Source of the DNA: Sulfurimonas sp. HSL3-1
GTDB taxonomy: Bacteria > Campylobacterota > Campylobacteria > Campylobacterales > Sulfurimonadaceae
DNA length: 64,000 nt
Direction: 5' to 3'
NCBI RefSeq assembly: GCF_039645995.1
Contig: NZ_CP147920.1
Coordinates: 1,922,001-1,986,000, forward strand
Each line of letters begins with the position of its first letter. Positions within the stretch are counted from its first letter, which is position 1. Shown here one piece after another: positions 19,374 through 29,101 of the stretch. The notes under the pieces are model-generated. The model ran no database searches. It saw only the letters and a program-made list of their open reading frames with translations, and had not been told where the DNA came from. The translations under genes were made by a program, and so were the position numbers.

Positions 19374-20123
19374 TCAATCCTCGATGTAATACCCGATACC
19401 CGAAGCGTTCTGGATAATGTCCGTGGGCAGCTTGTTGCGCAGACGCCAGACCAGGGTACGCACGCTGTTCTCCGTCGCCCCCTTCTCCTCCCAGACGTAG
19501 TTGATCGCCTGGTCGAAACTCACCACCAGCCCCAGCTGGGCCACAAGCAGCCGCATGAAAGCGTTCTCTTTTTTGGTCAGCTTGATCTTCTTGCCCTGGT
19601 AAAAGGTCTCGCAGACGCTGATGTCGAGGTAGTAGTCTTCCCCGAAAGGGACAATAGGCTTGTCGGAGAGCTTTTTGTTATAGAGCAGCTTCTCGAGGTT
19701 GAGTTTGTCGTTCTTCAACCCCTCGAAGTTCTCTTCGCGCTCCTTTTCGACATGGAACTTGTACATTGCCATCTGGATCGTCGCATGCAGCGACTCCGGG
19801 TCGAAAGGTTTGACGATATAACCGTACGGCTCGGTCTGTTTCGCCTCGTCGATGATGTCGGCATCGGAGTGGGCGGTGAGGTAGATGAAAGGGAGGCAGT
19901 GCCTCTCACGGATATACTTTGCCAGTTCGATACCGTCGGCATCTTCCTGCAGGCTGATATCGACGAGGACGATATCGGGCTCATAGACCTTGATCTTATT
20001 GGGTGCCTGGATCGAAGAATCTACTGTGGCAGCGACTTCATATCCCTGGTTTTCCAAAGCGATCTGCAGGTTCATCGCTGTAACGGGATCGTCCTCGACG
20101 ATCATGACTTTGTAACTTTCCAT
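19374..20123 (-). CDS. Response regulator with winged-helix output
   Basis: This 249-residue protein has a receiver domain (acidic E10-D11-D12, phospho-acceptor D55 in IVLVDISLQ, K-P-F near residue 108), a coiled linker (about 120-150), and a Trans_Reg_C-type domain (about 160-248). The receiver's VDISLQEDADGIELA is of the sort common in regulators partnered with hybrid kinases. It lies 143 bp from the hybrid kinase and on the same strand, downstream of it. No Pho-type boxes precede it, so it is probably outside the phosphate regulon. Confidence 0.85.
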   Translation of the reverse strand: MESYKVMIVEDDPVTAMNLQIALENQGYEVAATVDSSIQAPNKIKVYEPDIVLVDISLQEDADGIELAKYIRERHCLPFIYLTAHSDADIIDEAKQTEPYGYIVKPFDPESLHATIQMAMYKFHVEKEREENFEGLKNDKLNLEKLLYNKKLSDKPIVPFGEDYYLDISVCETFYQGKKIKLTKKENAFMRLLVAQLGLVVSFDQAINYVWEEKGATENSVRTLVWRLRNKLPTDIIQNASGIGYYIED

Positions 20124-20266: not shown

Positions 20267-22906
20267 TCAGCTTCCCTCCCCGATGAAGGCATTAAAGCAG
20301 CCGCGCATCGATCCGAGCATCCCCGTATAATCCAATGCCGTGTTGCCGGCGCGCGCCTCCCACTCCATTTTTTCGGCCAGCTTGGTCATGCTGTCGAAAC
20401 GGAAATTGCTGCTGGAACCCTTGATCGAATGGGCGAGCAGCGTCACCTGTTTGAGATCTTCCGCGTCAATGGCCGCCTTGAGCTCCTCAAAACTGCTCTG
20501 CATCTTTTCGCGGTAGACGCCCAGCAGCATCTGCAGCTGCGCTTCGGTGACCTGCAGGATCTCGCGCAGCTCCTCATGCTCGGGGAGTACCGTCTCCGGG
20601 GCCGTCTCCTCGGCAGCGGCATCTTCCGCGCGGGGGATGAAGCGCTCGAGCGAACTGATCAGCGTGGCCATCCGGATCGGCTTGCCGAGAAAATCGTCGT
20701 AGATGCGCCGCTGTTCGATCCCCCCGAGCACGTTTGCCGTCAGGGCGATGATGGGCAGATGCTGCCGCCCCTCCCGGTTTTCGATGTGCCGCATCGCCTG
20801 GACCGCATCCCGTCCGTTCATGACGGGCATCTGTTCATCCATCAGTACAAGGTCATAATGTTCCGTCCGCATCCGTTTGAGCGCTTCCGCCCCGTTGCCG
20901 ACGATCTCGTAACTGACACCGAGGTTACCCAGCAGCGTGCCGATCAGTTCCTGGTTCGCTTCGTTGTCCTCCGCGACGAGCAGGTGGGCGTTGAAACGCA
21001 CCCCGGCAGTATCCGCCCTCGGCTCCGGCTCCGTATCCCCCATTAGCGCCGTCTCGATCACCTCCTGGAGTTTTGAGCAGTACAGGGGCATGACGAGCGG
21101 CGTCACGCCGCTGATGTTCTCATAGGTGTCGTAGGGCGCATCCATCAGCGCCACCTTGGGCGACCCCTCCGCCAAGAGCGCCTTACGTTGCGCCTCCCCA
21201 ACACAGTGCTCCGAGAAAAAGAGCAGATCGTAACTGCCGTCAAGCACTTCCACCGATTTGATTTTCACGCCGAAGCTCTGCAGGTAGCGCACCAGGGAGG
21301 CCGCCATCGTATCAAACTTCTGTTCGGGGCAGTAGAGGGCGAGCCGGTGCTTGCGGATACACTCAAGGTCCGTCAGCAGCGGCCGGGTCTCATCCCCCAC
21401 GATGACGGGAAGGGTAAAGGTGAACGTGCTCCCGATCCCGGGGTGCGAATGCAGCGTGATCTCCCCGCCCATATGCCGCACAAGCTGGGCACTGATGGAG
21501 AGCCCGAGGCCCGTTCCCCCCGCTCCGGGAAGATCCTCGTTCCTGGCCTGGGAAAAGGGGTCGAAAATGTACTGCTGGTCCTTGGCCGCGATCCCGATGC
21601 CCGTATCGATGACGCTGATGCTGATCCGTCCCTCGGTGTAGAAGGCCTCGACGGTGATTTCGCCCCCCGGCGGGGTGAACTTGATGGCGTTGCTGAGCAG
21701 GTTCGAGATCACCTGCTGGATCCGCAGCGGGTCGGCGATCAGCTCGTAGGGGATGCGCGGATCGATAAAGCTTGTGAGGGTCAGATGCTGCTGGTTGACG
21801 CTGGGCACGAAGAGCTCCAGGGTGTGGCTGATGGTGCTGTGCAGGTTGAAAGGGGCCGGCTCGACGGTAAATTCGCCGCTGCGCAGTTTGGAGAAGTCGA
21901 GGATGTCGTTAATGATGCTCAGCAGGTTCTCGCCGCTGCTGTAGATGATGTCAAGGTAGCGGCGGTCCTTGACCGTCTGCGCCTCGTCCTTGAGCAGGGC
22001 GACAAAGCCCAGGATGGCGTTGAGCGGCGTTCGGATCTCGTGGGACATGTTGGAGAGAAAATACTCCTTCGCCTCTCCCGCCGCGATCGCCTCCTCCTTG
22101 GCCACAACAAGGTCGGTCACCTCGTAGCTGATCGCCATGTACTCCGTCACTGCACTGTGGGTATCGGTGATGGGGACGACCGTCGTATCGATATAGAAGG
22201 TGTGTTCATCCTTCGCCCTTCCCTTGATCGTCCCTTTGAACACCCCCTCTTCGCCGATGGCCGCCGCGAGGCGGTTGAAAAAGTTCCCCGGCATGTCGGG
22301 GTGGTAGAGCAACGTATGAGGACTGCCGACCAGCTCCTCCTGACTGTAGCCGCAGATACGGGTCAGTTTCGCATTGGCATAGGTAATCGTCCCCTGCGCG
22401 TCGGTCTTGGCGACGATGGCGCTCTCGTCGATGGCGCGCCGGTACTCTTCGAGCAGTTTGACGTTGCGCTCGATCTCCCGCTCTTTCTGGTAGATCGTCT
22501 CGGTATAGCGCTTGAGCACCCCGGAGAAGTTCAGGTCGAAGACGTAGCTGATCTCGTCGTAGACCTCCTGGGAGTTCACCCCGAGCTCGTAGGAGATGTC
22601 CACCATCGCCCGGCGGAAATGGCTGCAGAGCATAAAGAGTTCGTCGGAGGTCACCTCGTTGTCTTTGAGGTATTCGAGCAGTTCCGCCATGACCGGGCAG
22701 TCGCCGATCTGCATCTCGCCCCGGATGACCATCTCGAAATAGTCGTAGACCCCCGAGGCGTACTGGCGAATAAAAAAGTCGGTTTCGATCCCATGGCGCT
22801 TCAGCACCGATTCGGCTGTCTCGTAGGAGACCCAGCGCTGCAGAATCGTCGCCTTGGCCTCCTTGAAACGGTCAATGACACGTCGAAGCTGCGGAACGGA
22901 CGGCAT
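20267..22906 (-). CDS. Hybrid sensor histidine kinase with PAS, receiver and Hpt domains
   Basis: This 879-residue cytoplasmic-looking protein has an all-helical N-terminal domain of unknown type (about 1-145), a PAS domain (about 152-270), HisKA with H289 in FLSNMSHEIRTPLNA, HATPase (about 400-520), a degenerate receiver-like stretch, a full receiver with DLVLMDEQMPVMNG (near 690-700), and a C-terminal Hpt with LLAHSIKGSSSNF (near 830). No membrane helix is visible. It is a complete internal phosphorelay. The winged-helix regulator just downstream is the likely target (inference). The signal is unknown. Confidence 0.88.
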   Translation of the reverse strand: MPSVPQLRRVIDRFKEAKATILQRWVSYETAESVLKRHGIETDFFIRQYASGVYDYFEMVIRGEMQIGDCPVMAELLEYLKDNEVTSDELFMLCSHFRRAMVDISYELGVNSQEVYDEISYVFDLNFSGVLKRYTETIYQKEREIERNVKLLEEYRRAIDESAIVAKTDAQGTITYANAKLTRICGYSQEELVGSPHTLLYHPDMPGNFFNRLAAAIGEEGVFKGTIKGRAKDEHTFYIDTTVVPITDTHSAVTEYMAISYEVTDLVVAKEEAIAAGEAKEYFLSNMSHEIRTPLNAILGFVALLKDEAQTVKDRRYLDIIYSSGENLLSIINDILDFSKLRSGEFTVEPAPFNLHSTISHTLELFVPSVNQQHLTLTSFIDPRIPYELIADPLRIQQVISNLLSNAIKFTPPGGEITVEAFYTEGRISISVIDTGIGIAAKDQQYIFDPFSQARNEDLPGAGGTGLGLSISAQLVRHMGGEITLHSHPGIGSTFTFTLPVIVGDETRPLLTDLECIRKHRLALYCPEQKFDTMAASLVRYLQSFGVKIKSVEVLDGSYDLLFFSEHCVGEAQRKALLAEGSPKVALMDAPYDTYENISGVTPLVMPLYCSKLQEVIETALMGDTEPEPRADTAGVRFNAHLLVAEDNEANQELIGTLLGNLGVSYEIVGNGAEALKRMRTEHYDLVLMDEQMPVMNGRDAVQAMRHIENREGRQHLPIIALTANVLGGIEQRRIYDDFLGKPIRMATLISSLERFIPRAEDAAAEETAPETVLPEHEELREILQVTEAQLQMLLGVYREKMQSSFEELKAAIDAEDLKQVTLLAHSIKGSSSNFRFDSMTKLAEKMEWEARAGNTALDYTGMLGSMRGCFNAFIGEGS

Positions 22907-22971: not shown

Positions 22972-23796
22972 CTAGGGGAGCACCCAGGCAAATACGCCGA
23001 CGGCCAGCAGGGCGAGCTGCCCCAGCGCGATCCCCGCGGTACCGATGATATTTCCGGTTTGGCAGCTGGTGCACTGTTTGTATTTTTTCGCCTCGTATTC
23101 GGCATAGAAAAAGTAGGCGATGATCAGCACGAAGATCAGCCCGAGGGCGGCCATGTCCGCCACGGCGATCGTCTGTATCGTTGCCGCTTCAGCCATGAAC
23201 GGTGCGATGAAGCTGAGCAGGACGCCCAGCATCACGAGACGGTAGGCTTTCTTGATGTAATCGCGCACGAATACCGTCGGGCAGCTGCCGCTCGTCTGTC
23301 CGGGCATCCGACTCTCTTTGACAAGTCCCTGATCCAGATAGGCGTCGATCTGCTGCCGGACCGCCTTGGGGACGCGGTCGACGAAGGTACTGCCGAAGGC
23401 GTAGTCGAGCTGGTGCTGGAAGGTCCGTGCCAACGCCCCCTCCACGTCACGCGAATGCATCGCTCCCGTCTCATCCTCGTAGATGACCGTGAGGGAGGTG
23501 TAGCGCTCCACTTCCGCCGTAAAGTCGTAATAGGTCGAACGCTCCACCGCGGCCGCTTTCCCCTGCTCTTTGAGGAAACGGGCATTGATGTAGGGGGTGT
23601 ACTCGCCCTCCTCTTTGAGGACGATGACGTTGTACTGGATGCCGATCTGGATGGCGGAGAGGGCATCGAGGCCGTTGGCCTCCATCGTGTCGGTCATATC
23701 TGCGATAATGTCTTTGAGGGTCTCGTTGAAAAAACGGACATTACCGGAAATAAGACGTATGCGCGGGTCGGGGTATTTAAGCAGAGGTTGAATCAT
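22972..23796 (-). CDS. Membrane-anchored peptide-deformylase-like pseudoenzyme
   Basis: Residues 1-150 of this 274-residue protein follow the peptide deformylase fold. All three signature motifs are changed: GxGLAAxQ is LDALSAIQ (43-50), EGCLS is ERSTY (85-89, metal Cys to Ser), and HExDH is HQLDY (128-132, catalytic Glu to Gln and metal His to Tyr). After residue 180 there are three hydrophobic segments (about 186-203, 212-231, 250-272) and a CTSC pair (242-245), which are foreign to deformylases. Deformylation activity is therefore unlikely. What it does instead, possibly nascent-chain or membrane sensing, is open. Confidence 0.75.
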   Translation of the reverse strand: MIQPLLKYPDPRIRLISGNVRFFNETLKDIIADMTDTMEANGLDALSAIQIGIQYNVIVLKEEGEYTPYINARFLKEQGKAAAVERSTYYDFTAEVERYTSLTVIYEDETGAMHSRDVEGALARTFQHQLDYAFGSTFVDRVPKAVRQQIDAYLDQGLVKESRMPGQTSGSCPTVFVRDYIKKAYRLVMLGVLLSFIAPFMAEAATIQTIAVADMAALGLIFVLIIAYFFYAEYEAKKYKQCTSCQTGNIIGTAGIALGQLALLAVGVFAWVLP

Positions 23797-23853: not shown

Positions 23854-24018
23854 TTATCCGTGGCTTTTACGGACGACGATGATCATCTTGATGTTGATGA
23901 TCACAAAGCGGATGAACTGCCAGATTTTGCACGTACGCATCATCCGGGCGAAACGGCCCGGGATCATTGAGGTGTTAAACTTGTCGTTCAGCGCGAAATT
24001 TACTTCTTCTTGTCTCAT
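23854..24018 (-). CDS. Small basic membrane-proximal protein (54 residues) downstream of the SQR-like gene
   Basis: An ATG at 24018 opens a 54-codon frame ending at 23854, preceded by a strong AAAGGAGGA at good spacing. The N-terminal half is polar (MRQEEVNFALNDKFN), the second half a hydrophobic, Lys/Arg-studded helix (IWQFIRFVIINIKMIIVV). It starts 18 bp after the stop of the SQR-like flavoprotein and should be co-transcribed. No family is recognised. A membrane tether or small subunit for the flavoprotein is a guess. Confidence 0.7.
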   Translation of the reverse strand: MRQEEVNFALNDKFNTSMIPGRFARMMRTCKIWQFIRFVIINIKMIIVVRKSHG

Positions 24019-24036: not shown

Positions 24037-25506
24037 TTATTCCGGAATCAGCGTCCAGCCCGGCTTGAGCTTCGCTTTGTAGATAAAGAGGTAGTGCAGG
24101 ATATGCTTGATCCAGTGTCCTGCCAGACCGATCTCACCGAAGGTATAGTCCGTATCGCGGCCCGTACCCGGGTACTTGTCGAAGTCCGGAACGACCGGGT
24201 AGACGGTCATTGCCGCCGCCTGGCCATTGAGCCACCCTTTACCGGCAGACGCGACACAGGCCGCGCCCATTTCCGCCATGGAGGCTTCGTGCAGATGCGC
24301 GTTCTCGCCGCGCGTCATCAGGTCGACGACGGAGTGCGCGACGGCCTTGCCCATAATACCCGAAGGCATACCCGTCCGCGGCGGTGTCGGGTTGATCACC
24401 GTGCCGTTGGGCGATTTCATCGGTTTGGAGATGATATGCGGCGGCGCAAACGCAATACCGGCGGCGAACATGTTCTTGTACGTCGGGTTCTGGTAGGTAC
24501 GCGGCCAGTCGCTCGCTTTCCACTCTTCATACGGTTTCGGCGTGTAATCCGCGTCAACCTTCATGAAGCCGTTCGGTGCGAAGACCGTATCAGTGATCTC
24601 TTCGCCCGCTTTGTTGTAGGCTTTGAGACCGACACCCGCAAACGGCGGGATCAGCATCGCGAAGTCGAAATTCTCTTCGCCGGTGGAACCGTCAAGCAGT
24701 TCGTAGCCGACTTTGCCTTTTTCAACGTTGTTGACATGCGCACCGATCACATAATCGACGCCGCGTTCGGCAAAGAGAGACTCGGTAAAGATACGGGAGC
24801 TGACGACGTAGCCGCCGACTTTCATATGCAGACCGCCCATACCGAAGTCGCCGAGGAACGATTCATTGGAGATCCACTTGATCTCTACGTTGTCGCGGAT
24901 CCCCGCCTTGCGCGCTTCGTGTTCGATGTTGAAGATATATTCGAACGCCGCCCCCTGGCAGGTACACATACCGTGCCCGGTCCCGACGAGGATCTTCTGC
25001 TTTTCGCCCGCTTTCGCTTTTTCAAAGATCTTGTTCAGTTCTTCGCTCGCGTGTACGGCGTGATCGGCGGTACAGACGGAAACGGTGTTCTCACCGATCT
25101 CGCTGCCCTCGCCCAGACCCGGAGTCGCACCGAAGTTCAGTTTCGGCCCCGTGGCGTTTACCAGATAGTCAAAAGTGACATCCTCATTCTCGCCGGCTTT
25201 ATCCTGGCCGGTATACTCAATTGTCACAAAAGGCTTGTCCGAATTCGCATCCCCCTCGGGATTGATTGAGACCGCTTTCGCTTGTTTATAGGTGATACCT
25301 GCTTTCGCATACACCGGTGCCAGATCGAAAGTGACATCATCCTTTGTCATCTCACCGACACCTACCCAGATGTTCGACGGAATCCAGTTCCATTTGGAAT
25401 TCGGTGTCACAACGACGACTTCATGCTCTTTACCCAACCACTTTGCGGCGAATGTTGCCGCCGTATGGCCGGCAACACCGCCGCCGAGTACGACTAATCT
25501 TGCCAT
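24037..25506 (-). CDS. Sulfide:quinone oxidoreductase family flavoprotein
   Basis: SQR-type enzymes oxidise sulfide and pass electrons to quinone at the membrane. This 489-residue protein has an N-terminal FAD Rossmann motif GGGVAGHTAA (8-17), Cys at 145, 181, 183 and 417 as candidate redox cysteines, a second FAD segment near NMFAAGIAF (345-353), and an amphipathic C-terminus (KHILHYLFIYKAKLKPGW) suited to membrane contact. No signal peptide is present. SQR subtype is not assigned. It is divergent from the periplasmic protein/DUF3373/Tat-flavoprotein genes, which look functionally linked. Confidence 0.82.
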   Translation of the reverse strand: MARLVVLGGGVAGHTAATFAAKWLGKEHEVVVVTPNSKWNWIPSNIWVGVGEMTKDDVTFDLAPVYAKAGITYKQAKAVSINPEGDANSDKPFVTIEYTGQDKAGENEDVTFDYLVNATGPKLNFGATPGLGEGSEIGENTVSVCTADHAVHASEELNKIFEKAKAGEKQKILVGTGHGMCTCQGAAFEYIFNIEHEARKAGIRDNVEIKWISNESFLGDFGMGGLHMKVGGYVVSSRIFTESLFAERGVDYVIGAHVNNVEKGKVGYELLDGSTGEENFDFAMLIPPFAGVGLKAYNKAGEEITDTVFAPNGFMKVDADYTPKPYEEWKASDWPRTYQNPTYKNMFAAGIAFAPPHIISKPMKSPNGTVINPTPPRTGMPSGIMGKAVAHSVVDLMTRGENAHLHEASMAEMGAACVASAGKGWLNGQAAAMTVYPVVPDFDKYPGTGRDTDYTFGEIGLAGHWIKHILHYLFIYKAKLKPGWTLIPE

Positions 25507-25787: not shown

Positions 25788-26123
25788 ATGACAACTTTCG
25801 GAAAACTCACAACCTCCGCACTGCTGGGCCTTGGCCTCCTTACTTCTGCACTGCACGCCGATGCAGGAAAAGGCCAACGCCTCTATCAGAAAAAGCTCAA
25901 AGAGACCTGCGGTATGACCGGTGCCGTCTTCGCGGCAAAGCATACGCAGATGGAGTGGGAAGAGGCCAAAGAGAACGGCAATCTTGCCGAAATGATGACC
26001 GAAGCCTGTCCCGAAGGCAAAAACTTTTTTGAAAGCGACAAGTTCGAAAGCAAATTCAAAGAGCACCTCTACGATTTCGTACACGACTTTGCAAGCGACA
26101 GCGGCAACATCCCCTCTTGCTGA
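25788..26123 (+). CDS. Small periplasmic protein resembling a cytochrome c without a heme motif
   Basis: This 111-residue protein has a signal peptide (about 1-25) and then GKGQRLYQKKLKETCGMTG, which aligns with the start of monohaem cytochromes c, but where CxxCH is expected only the second Cys (C41) remains and the His is absent. Three Cys occur in all (C41, C74 and the C-terminal C111). It opens the +-strand half of the sulfide locus, 77 bp before the DUF3373 protein. A periplasmic redox or sulfur-carrier role through its cysteines is possible (inference). Confidence 0.65.
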   Translation: MTTFGKLTTSALLGLGLLTSALHADAGKGQRLYQKKLKETCGMTGAVFAAKHTQMEWEEAKENGNLAEMMTEACPEGKNFFESDKFESKFKEHLYDFVHDFASDSGNIPSC

Positions 26124-27658: not shown

Positions 27659-29101
27659 ATGAATATGAAAAAACGGTTTAACAACCCGGAGCTGAAAACG
27701 CCTTCGGTCAACCTGTCGCGCCGCGAGGCGCTCAAACTGATGGGGATCTCCCCTATTGCCGCCGGGGTGCTCGCTTCCGCCGGAAGCAGCAGCGTCACCG
27801 AGGCCCGCGCCTCCGGCGCGAAGGGCAAAATCGTCATCGTCGGCGGGGGTGCGGGCGGCATCATGGCGATGGCGCGCCTGCACCGCGCCCTCTCCGATCC
27901 CGACATCACCCTGATCGCCCCGAACGAAAAACACCTCTACCAGCCGGGGCAGGTCTTCATGGCCGCGGGCGAATACACCTATGACGACATCGTCAAAGAG
28001 AACCGGGAGTTCATCCCCGACGACGTCAACTGGATCAAGGACGAGGTCAAAACCTTCGACCCGGACAATAACAGGGTCATCACCCGTGCCGGCGAGGAGG
28101 TCTTCTACGACTATCTCGTCGTCGCGACGGGCCTGCAGTACCATTATGAATGGATCGAGGGTCTCGGCGCCGACATGATCGGCCAGAACGGCATCTCCAG
28201 CGTCTACCTGAACGACCCGGAAAAGGGGACGGCAGACGGCGGCTCCCTCACCTGGGAGTGGTTCAACGCCCTCAAAGCCGCGGCCAAAACGGGCAATCCG
28301 AAGGTCATCTGCACCCAGCCGGGCACCCCGATCAAGTGCGGCGGCGCCCCGCAGAAGATCCTCTACCTCAGCGACGACTTCCTCAAGCGCGACGGTCTCA
28401 GCGCGGAGTTCACCTTTGCGACAAACGGCGGCAGCCTCTTCGGGGTGCCGGAAGTGAACAAGACACTGGTCGAAGAGGTGCAGCCGCGCTACGGCAACAT
28501 CACGAACAAATTCGGCCACAACCTCGTCGCCATCGATGCCGCCGGCAAAGTCGCGACCTTCGAACACAAGTACGAGGTCCAGGGCGAGTACGACGAGGAC
28601 CTCGAAGAGTACGACATGATCACCAAGGTCGACCGCGTGGAAATGCCCTATGATTTTATCCATATCGTCCCGCCGATGAGCGCGCCGGACGCCGTCGCCT
28701 CCTCGCCGCTGGGGTGGCAGAAAGGCTCCGCCAAAGGGTGGCTCGAAGTCGACCGCTACACCCTGCAGCACCTGCGCTACCCCAATGTCTTCGGCATCGG
28801 GGACGTCTGCGGCATCCCGCTGGGCAAAACAGGCGGGAGTGCGCGCCACCACGGGCCGATCATGGTCGCCAACCTCCTGGCGCAGATGGAAGGCAAGGAA
28901 CCCAAAGAGAAGTTTGACGGCTATACCGTCTGTCCCCTCAAAACGCAGTATGGTAAAATCATCCTGGCCGAGTTCGACTACGACGGCGCCGCGCCCTCCT
29001 TCCCGCTCGCCGTCGGCGAGCAGCGCTGGGCGTGGTGGGCCTTTGACCTGTACATGCTCAAACCGATGTACTGGTACCTGATGATGCGGGGGCTGATGTA
29101 G
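27659..29101 (+). CDS. Tat-exported sulfide:quinone oxidoreductase/flavocytochrome-type flavoprotein
   Basis: This 480-residue protein has a twin-arginine signal (SRREALKLMG at 20-29), the FAD motif VGGGAGGIMA (61-70), Cys at 218, 227, 384 and 425, and a hydrophobic/aromatic C-terminal tail (WAWWAFDLYMLKPMYWYLMM) that should dock into the membrane. Such enzymes oxidise sulfide in the periplasm. It differs from the cytosol-side homologue at 24037, which lacks a signal, so the locus may oxidise sulfide on both sides of the membrane or one copy has another substrate. AAGGAG precedes the start. Confidence 0.83.
   Translation: MNMKKRFNNPELKTPSVNLSRREALKLMGISPIAAGVLASAGSSSVTEARASGAKGKIVIVGGGAGGIMAMARLHRALSDPDITLIAPNEKHLYQPGQVFMAAGEYTYDDIVKENREFIPDDVNWIKDEVKTFDPDNNRVITRAGEEVFYDYLVVATGLQYHYEWIEGLGADMIGQNGISSVYLNDPEKGTADGGSLTWEWFNALKAAAKTGNPKVICTQPGTPIKCGGAPQKILYLSDDFLKRDGLSAEFTFATNGGSLFGVPEVNKTLVEEVQPRYGNITNKFGHNLVAIDAAGKVATFEHKYEVQGEYDEDLEEYDMITKVDRVEMPYDFIHIVPPMSAPDAVASSPLGWQKGSAKGWLEVDRYTLQHLRYPNVFGIGDVCGIPLGKTGGSARHHGPIMVANLLAQMEGKEPKEKFDGYTVCPLKTQYGKIILAEFDYDGAAPSFPLAVGEQRWAWWAFDLYMLKPMYWYLMMRGLM

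Follow-up and report, generated by a model that had tools for sequence, protein, structure and literature searches.

What becomes of a peptide deformylase that has lost most of its active site and gained a membrane tail, in a cell that keeps an intact deformylase elsewhere? We address this question for a gene of Sulfurimonas sp. HSL3-1 that lies within a 64,000-nucleotide stretch of the chromosome, referred to here as the window, whose coordinates are used throughout. A sequence-only reading of the gene had described a membrane-fused deformylase homologue with every catalytic motif destroyed, and had proposed that this preserved but inactive protein has a new role, such as binding formyl-Met or hydrophobic N-termini. 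We call the protein PDFX. The features of its deformylase part are as follows.

22972..23796, (-) strand: PDFX, a membrane-fused, putatively non-catalytic peptide deformylase (PDF) paralogue of 274 aa (the name is a label of this analysis)
23362..23790, (-) strand: PDF domain, residues 3-145 (Pfam PF01327)
23647..23670, (-) strand: LDALSAIQ in place of the former GxGLAAxQ, residues 43-50 (by alignment)
23536..23538, (-) strand: Ser87 at the position of the metal-binding Cys (by alignment)
23401..23415, (-) strand: HQLDY in place of the former HExDH, residues 128-132 (by alignment; the wider family mostly has RKxDY)

The open reading frame begins with ATG and encodes 274 aa with no internal stop, so that the frame is indeed kept, as the sequence-only reading held. 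Residues 3-145 score 91.3 bits against PF01327 (cut-off 22.8), which places them within the Pfam domain. Six NCBIfam deformylase models also matched the protein, each below its cut-off (best score 65.7, against 190). Among solved structures, the family profile matches the Helicobacter pylori deformylase 2ew5 best (E 4.8e-30). AlphaFold2, given three sequences as input in each run, returned a pLDDT of 41 for the full protein and 40 for the PDF domain alone, too low for a usable model.

We compared the motifs of the window protein with those of E. coli Def and of the intact def gene of the HSL3-1 genome. The E. coli reference row supplies the residue numbers used below for family columns, which are the usual literature numbers plus one. 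In this alignment GIGLAAxQ of intact Def has become LDALSAIQ, EGCLS has become ERSTY and QHEMDH has become QHQLDY, which confirms the letters reported earlier (metal Cys to Ser, HExDH to HQLDY, GxGLAAxQ to LDALSAIQ). The stronger statement that every catalytic motif is destroyed goes slightly too far: metal Cys, catalytic Glu and second metal His are all lost, but the first metal His (the His of HQLDY) is retained, as are three letters of GxGLAAxQ (L, A and Q). The separate intact def that had been expected is present in the same 2.5-Mb, single-contig genome (G000:C1:203858-204316, E 7.7e-49) and carries GIGLAAIQ, EGCLS and QHEMDH. These comparisons support a window protein that would be non-catalytic as a deformylase.

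Matches to PDFX occur in 224 of the 228 genomes searched from the same GTDB family; many are full-length, tail included, and the weaker ones resemble ordinary deformylases. With a profile search, the full-length membership extends to several further families of Campylobacterales. Orthologues with equivalent losses and the same tail, as the sequence-only reading would predict, are represented in our alignment by 119 relatives: 79 non-identical proteins from the own family (identical proteins and a fragment, L005, were left out) and 40 others, most of them from other families of the order. Members were picked by a full-length match that includes the tail, not by their active-site letters, and counts out of 118 omit a second fragment, L159. 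No member has Cys in the metal Cys column (C91), which holds Thr in 64, Ser in 45, Asp in 7 and Asn in 3, and neither the catalytic Glu (E134) nor the second metal His (H137) is found in any of the 119. The first metal His is retained in 15/119 and the first Gly of GxGLAAxQ in none (one member has a gap there), while Arg or Lys occupies both the former His and the former Glu position of that motif in 72/119. Around these losses Glu89, Gln132 and Asp136 are kept in all 119 members, and Gln51 in 94.

A clearly homologous fold (PF01327) and the one metal His of the window copy might be taken to indicate that PDFX is a divergent yet active deformylase, or some other hydrolase that works with different residues. 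We consider this very improbable, since the metal Cys, the Glu and the second His are jointly gone from all 118 near-full-length members, an intact def is found elsewhere in the genome, and the PDF part offers no conserved substitute ligand: no replacement Cys or His column is shared by a majority of members, the best candidate being His114 (52/118). The question of alternative ligands is thereby also answered in favour of the earlier reading.

Decay is a still less credible account. One copy does look like a pseudogene: in Sulfurovum mangrovi (NZ_CP087125.1; L199 7001-7816) stops and a frame change split PDFX into two coding sequences, both annotated 'peptide deformylase'. For the family as a whole, however, decay is refuted by the dN/dS values among five congeners (whole protein, 0.05-0.15; PDF domain, 0.04-0.11), by long open frames in all 119 aligned copies, and by conservation over several families of the operon described below. 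The low dN/dS and the recurrence of the same losses in 119 members are the opposite of random decay, again as the earlier reading had supposed. With catalytic residues lost across orthologues under purifying selection, PDFX qualifies on sequence grounds as a conserved pseudoenzyme.

A phage or plasmid origin was considered and rejected on the results of database searches. Of 115 plasmid records found with PDFX, only the S. mangrovi record covers at least 80% of the query; it bears a plasmid label, yet has rpsI and rplM aboard. Among the 16 phage records found, coverage of the query stays below 80% in every case. In a FastTree phylogeny of 137 PDF domains (L044 and L159 left out), all 117 of 117 PDFX sequences form one clade with support of 0.92, and all 18 canonical deformylases included keep every motif. 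The PDFX clade is nested within the Campylobacterota deformylases in this tree, which is rooted on E. coli Def alone as a single outgroup sequence. By its sequence PDFX thus looks like a single ancient def duplicate that has been repurposed.

The clues to that second use begin with the C-terminal part of the protein, which extends beyond the PDF domain.

23281..23283, (-) strand: Cys172 of a conserved Cys-Pro that immediately precedes the first membrane helix (116/118 members)
23191..23235, (-) strand: hydrophobic segment 1, residues ~188-202 (by family-mean hydropathy)
23116..23154, (-) strand: hydrophobic segment 2, residues ~215-227 (by family-mean hydropathy)
23062..23073, (-) strand: CTSC motif (Cys242, Cys245) in a positively charged, predicted cytosolic loop (both Cys in 118/118)
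22975..23040, (-) strand: hydrophobic segment 3, residues ~253-274 (by family-mean hydropathy)

The three hydrophobic segments and the CxxC recognized earlier are borne out, and Cys172 joins them as a third conserved cysteine. The tail signature of the family is Cys172-Pro followed by Cys-[Thr/Ser]-Ser-Cys-Gln, with all three cysteines present in 116/118 members. Positive charge peaks before segment 1 and between segments 2 and 3, a distribution from which the N-terminus and the CxxC loop are predicted to be cytosolic. No Pfam family matched the tail above its cut-off; the FeoB-associated Cys-rich family was rejected as an assignment because its match (E 0.082) lies under the cut-off. The only near-full-length members without Cys172 are L157 (G027) and L163 (G456), which have Ala and Tyr there; both lie outside the operon described below, and they pair in the tree (support 0.91). 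PDFX is thus inactive by sequence, preserved by selection and fused to a membrane tail, and hence should have a new role. To this extent the losses in 119 members and the low dN/dS support the original proposal.

The genes next to PDFX point to what that role may be. PDFX is the last of three genes on one strand.

24037..25506, (-) strand: sulfide:quinone oxidoreductase (SQR), 489 aa, first gene of the operon (best PDB match 3hyv)
23854..24018, (-) strand: conserved 54-aa small protein with an AAGGAGG ribosome-binding site and no Pfam or NCBIfam family

The SQR gene is followed after 18 nt by the 54-aa open reading frame and, after a further 57 nt, by PDFX, and a simple scan found no terminators on the operon strand between the three. 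This order is kept over several families: the small protein is encoded directly upstream of PDFX in 77 of 103 PDFX loci, and SQR is present as well in 75. Searches of the small protein against Pfam and NCBIfam matched no family, yet its sequence is strikingly conserved, with the pattern RTCxIWQFIRFxxINxKMxxVVxKSH. The best solved relative of the SQR is that of Aquifex aeolicus (3hyv, E 5.1e-41), and four SQR cysteines are conserved in at least 72 of the 77 aligned homologues. According to a review (PMC4584964), the Aquifex enzyme is type I, types I and IV fall in a single clade, and type I SQR is absent from Sulfurimonas. Because of this shared clade and the absence of type I, the operon SQR is probably type IV.

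Two further genes lie close by on the opposite strand. The first, at 27659-29101 (+), near the first SQR, encodes a second SQR-like protein with the twin-arginine motif SRREALKLMG; type II SQRs have a Tat motif according to the same review (PMC4584964), and this protein is likely, judged by its sequence, to be one of them. The second, at 25788-26123 (+), is divergent from the SQR operon and encodes a small, predicted secreted protein with several cysteines.

Linkage of PDFX to SQR extends from gene order to genome content. We searched 397 genomes of the phylum separately for SQR (at a threshold of E up to 1e-100), for the small protein and for the PDFX tail. SQR and the small protein were each found in 111 genomes, and the two sets are identical; at the level of genes, 114 of 115 small open reading frames have an SQR gene no more than 400 bp away, and the remaining one is not next to an SQR. 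The PDFX tail was found in 80 genomes by raw count and in 79 after exclusion of G312, which has a weak, partial tail match (E 4.6e-4). All 79 fall inside the set of 111 with SQR and the small protein, and none among the 286 genomes without SQR. Within the own GTDB family, 44 genomes have SQR and PDFX, 3 have SQR only, 4 have neither and none has PDFX only (Fisher p 1.4e-4, which treats genomes as independent although they are not). In the converse direction, 32 of the 111 genomes have SQR and the small protein without PDFX. PDFX is therefore not essential to SQR, and the dependence appears to run from PDFX to the module, not the reverse.

The tie of PDFX to SQR is one of genomic association. 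Given that association, we judge it somewhat more probable than not that PDFX is a def paralogue of single origin, devoid of deformylase chemistry, that now serves the SQR module as an accessory subunit or helps in its assembly. Under such a scheme, a duplicate of an ancestral Campylobacterota peptide deformylase would have given up deformylase chemistry, acquired a tail of three membrane helices that carries three conserved cysteines, and joined SQR and the small protein as accessory subunit or assembly factor. Its PDF domain would sit on the cytosolic face and serve for docking or for binding a ligand, the partner being SQR, the small protein or both. Counting against an accessory role are the 32 of 111 SQR genomes that lack PDFX, the 26 of 103 PDFX loci that lack the SQR and small-protein neighbours, and the faster divergence of PDFX: over the same 17 loci, identity to the window copies is 33-44% for PDFX and 72-86% for SQR, a disparity that seems unlike a tightly packed subunit.

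The loci outside the operon are informative in their own right. Among the 26 loci without the small protein upstream, an AhpD/carboxymuconolactone-decarboxylase-like protein is encoded near PDFX in 8 and a DsrE-like protein in 7 (the copy inspected has an apparent signal peptide), and 12 of the 26 group in the tree with weak support (0.39). PDFX paralogues are thus associated with thiol and sulfur proteins independently of SQR. In five loci (L046, L049, L053, L071 and L092) the AhpD-like, DsrE-like and PDFX genes stand in a row, in two of them (L046 and L053) together with a divergent MerR-type regulator; such a row may be an operon with which some relatives meet redox or sulfur stress. The nearness of DsrE-like and AhpD-like thiol proteins fits a reading of the tail in which its three cysteines (Cys-Pro and Cys-x-x-Cys) cluster on the cytosolic side and there take up or sense sulfane sulfur, or sense the redox state at the membrane, although we offer this as a guess that may well prove wrong.

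A regulatory interpretation draws on two genes found downstream of PDFX in the window.

20267..22906, (-) strand: hybrid histidine kinase (PAS, HisKA, HATPase, receiver, Hpt), downstream of PDFX
19374..20123, (-) strand: response regulator of the neighbouring two-component pair

PDFX could be a membrane sensor of redox state or sulfide, whose cysteine cluster and dead pocket signal to the adjacent kinase and response regulator, with paralogues in a MerR-controlled stress operon. Of the 103 loci, 42 encode a homologue of the kinase close to PDFX and 43 a homologue of the response regulator, and a MerR-type regulator is near in 14, of which 12 are among the 26 without the SQR operon. There is also precedent for a regulatory deformylase in Bacillus subtilis, where DefA has a non-housekeeping role tied to oxidative stress, under which it inhibits the kinase PtkA (PMC11194573). 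DefA differs in being a minor peptide deformylase of assayed activity, and neither a membrane tail nor a link to sulfide is mentioned in the accessible part of the article. We regard the sensor as unlikely, because about 60 of the 103 loci, most of them from other families, have no kinase pair near PDFX, and many of these still show the link to SQR.

The binding of formyl-Met or hydrophobic N-termini by the dead pocket, suggested at the outset, might serve, for example, to recruit or insert a nascent, signal-less SQR or small protein at the membrane. Its appeal is that residues of the old site are retained (E89, Q132 and D136 without exception, Gln51 in most members) and that the window SQR (24037-25506) lacks the Tat motif that type II SQRs possess (PMC4584964). 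Yet the helix of the former metal site has become cationic in the 72 members with Arg or Lys at both the former His and the former Glu position, no member retains the first Gly of GxG, and PDFX paralogues also occur away from SQR. We found no support for this part of the earlier proposal and think it distinctly unlikely; the genomic evidence points instead to sulfide oxidation (75/103 loci, and SQR genomes only).

If PDFX does serve the SQR module, a more specific and speculative version, which we consider unlikely, is that the PDF fold now forms the membrane subunit of a Campylobacterota module in which three proteins oxidize sulfide: the former metal site, now often Arg-Lys plus Tyr, would bind a different ligand (polysulfide or another anion, for instance), Cys172 and the CxxC would pass sulfane sulfur from SQR to the cytosol, and the 54-aa protein would be an unrecognized strict partner of this SQR.

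PDFX resembles several known systems in part. It is homologous to Campylobacterota Def (2ew5) over the whole domain, and its three motif regions are alike in length and spacing, but the catalytic Cys, Glu and second His are replaced in all members, and it adds the three-helix tail with three conserved cysteines and the SQR operon. Pseudopeptidases of metallopeptidase families (PMC11266112) likewise combine substituted HExxH-type motifs with a conserved protein and a non-catalytic role, although deformylases are not mentioned (0 occurrences) in the accessible part of that article. As for SQR types I and IV, it is the operon partner that matches the Aquifex enzyme (3hyv), PDFX itself not being an SQR, and a small or deformylase-like partner is not named in the accessible part of PMC4584964. 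We found no description of a deformylase-like protein of this kind from Sulfurimonas or these bacteria in the open-licence literature. The S. mangrovi record shows the same gene order under the names 'FAD-dependent oxidoreductase', 'hypothetical protein' and 'peptide deformylase'; PDFX is thus already in the databases, under a misleading name that the present analysis corrects.

PDFX is a PDF-fold pseudoenzyme in a new setting. Its catalytic loss, strong conservation and SQR and small-protein neighbours together suggest that an old enzyme fold has been re-used in sulfur energy metabolism, which offers a concrete, testable second role for the fold of a textbook translation enzyme. Two undescribed proteins, PDFX and the 54-aa protein, are attached to an SQR of sulfur-oxidising Campylobacterota, a group of enzymes for which it is unresolved, according to the review PMC4584964, whether the different types give the same intermediates and products. 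The strict pairing of SQR with the 54-aa protein, which share one set of 111 genomes out of 397, may turn out to be the more valuable outcome of this work, and the small protein deserves a study of its own, including in the 32 genomes where it accompanies SQR without PDFX.
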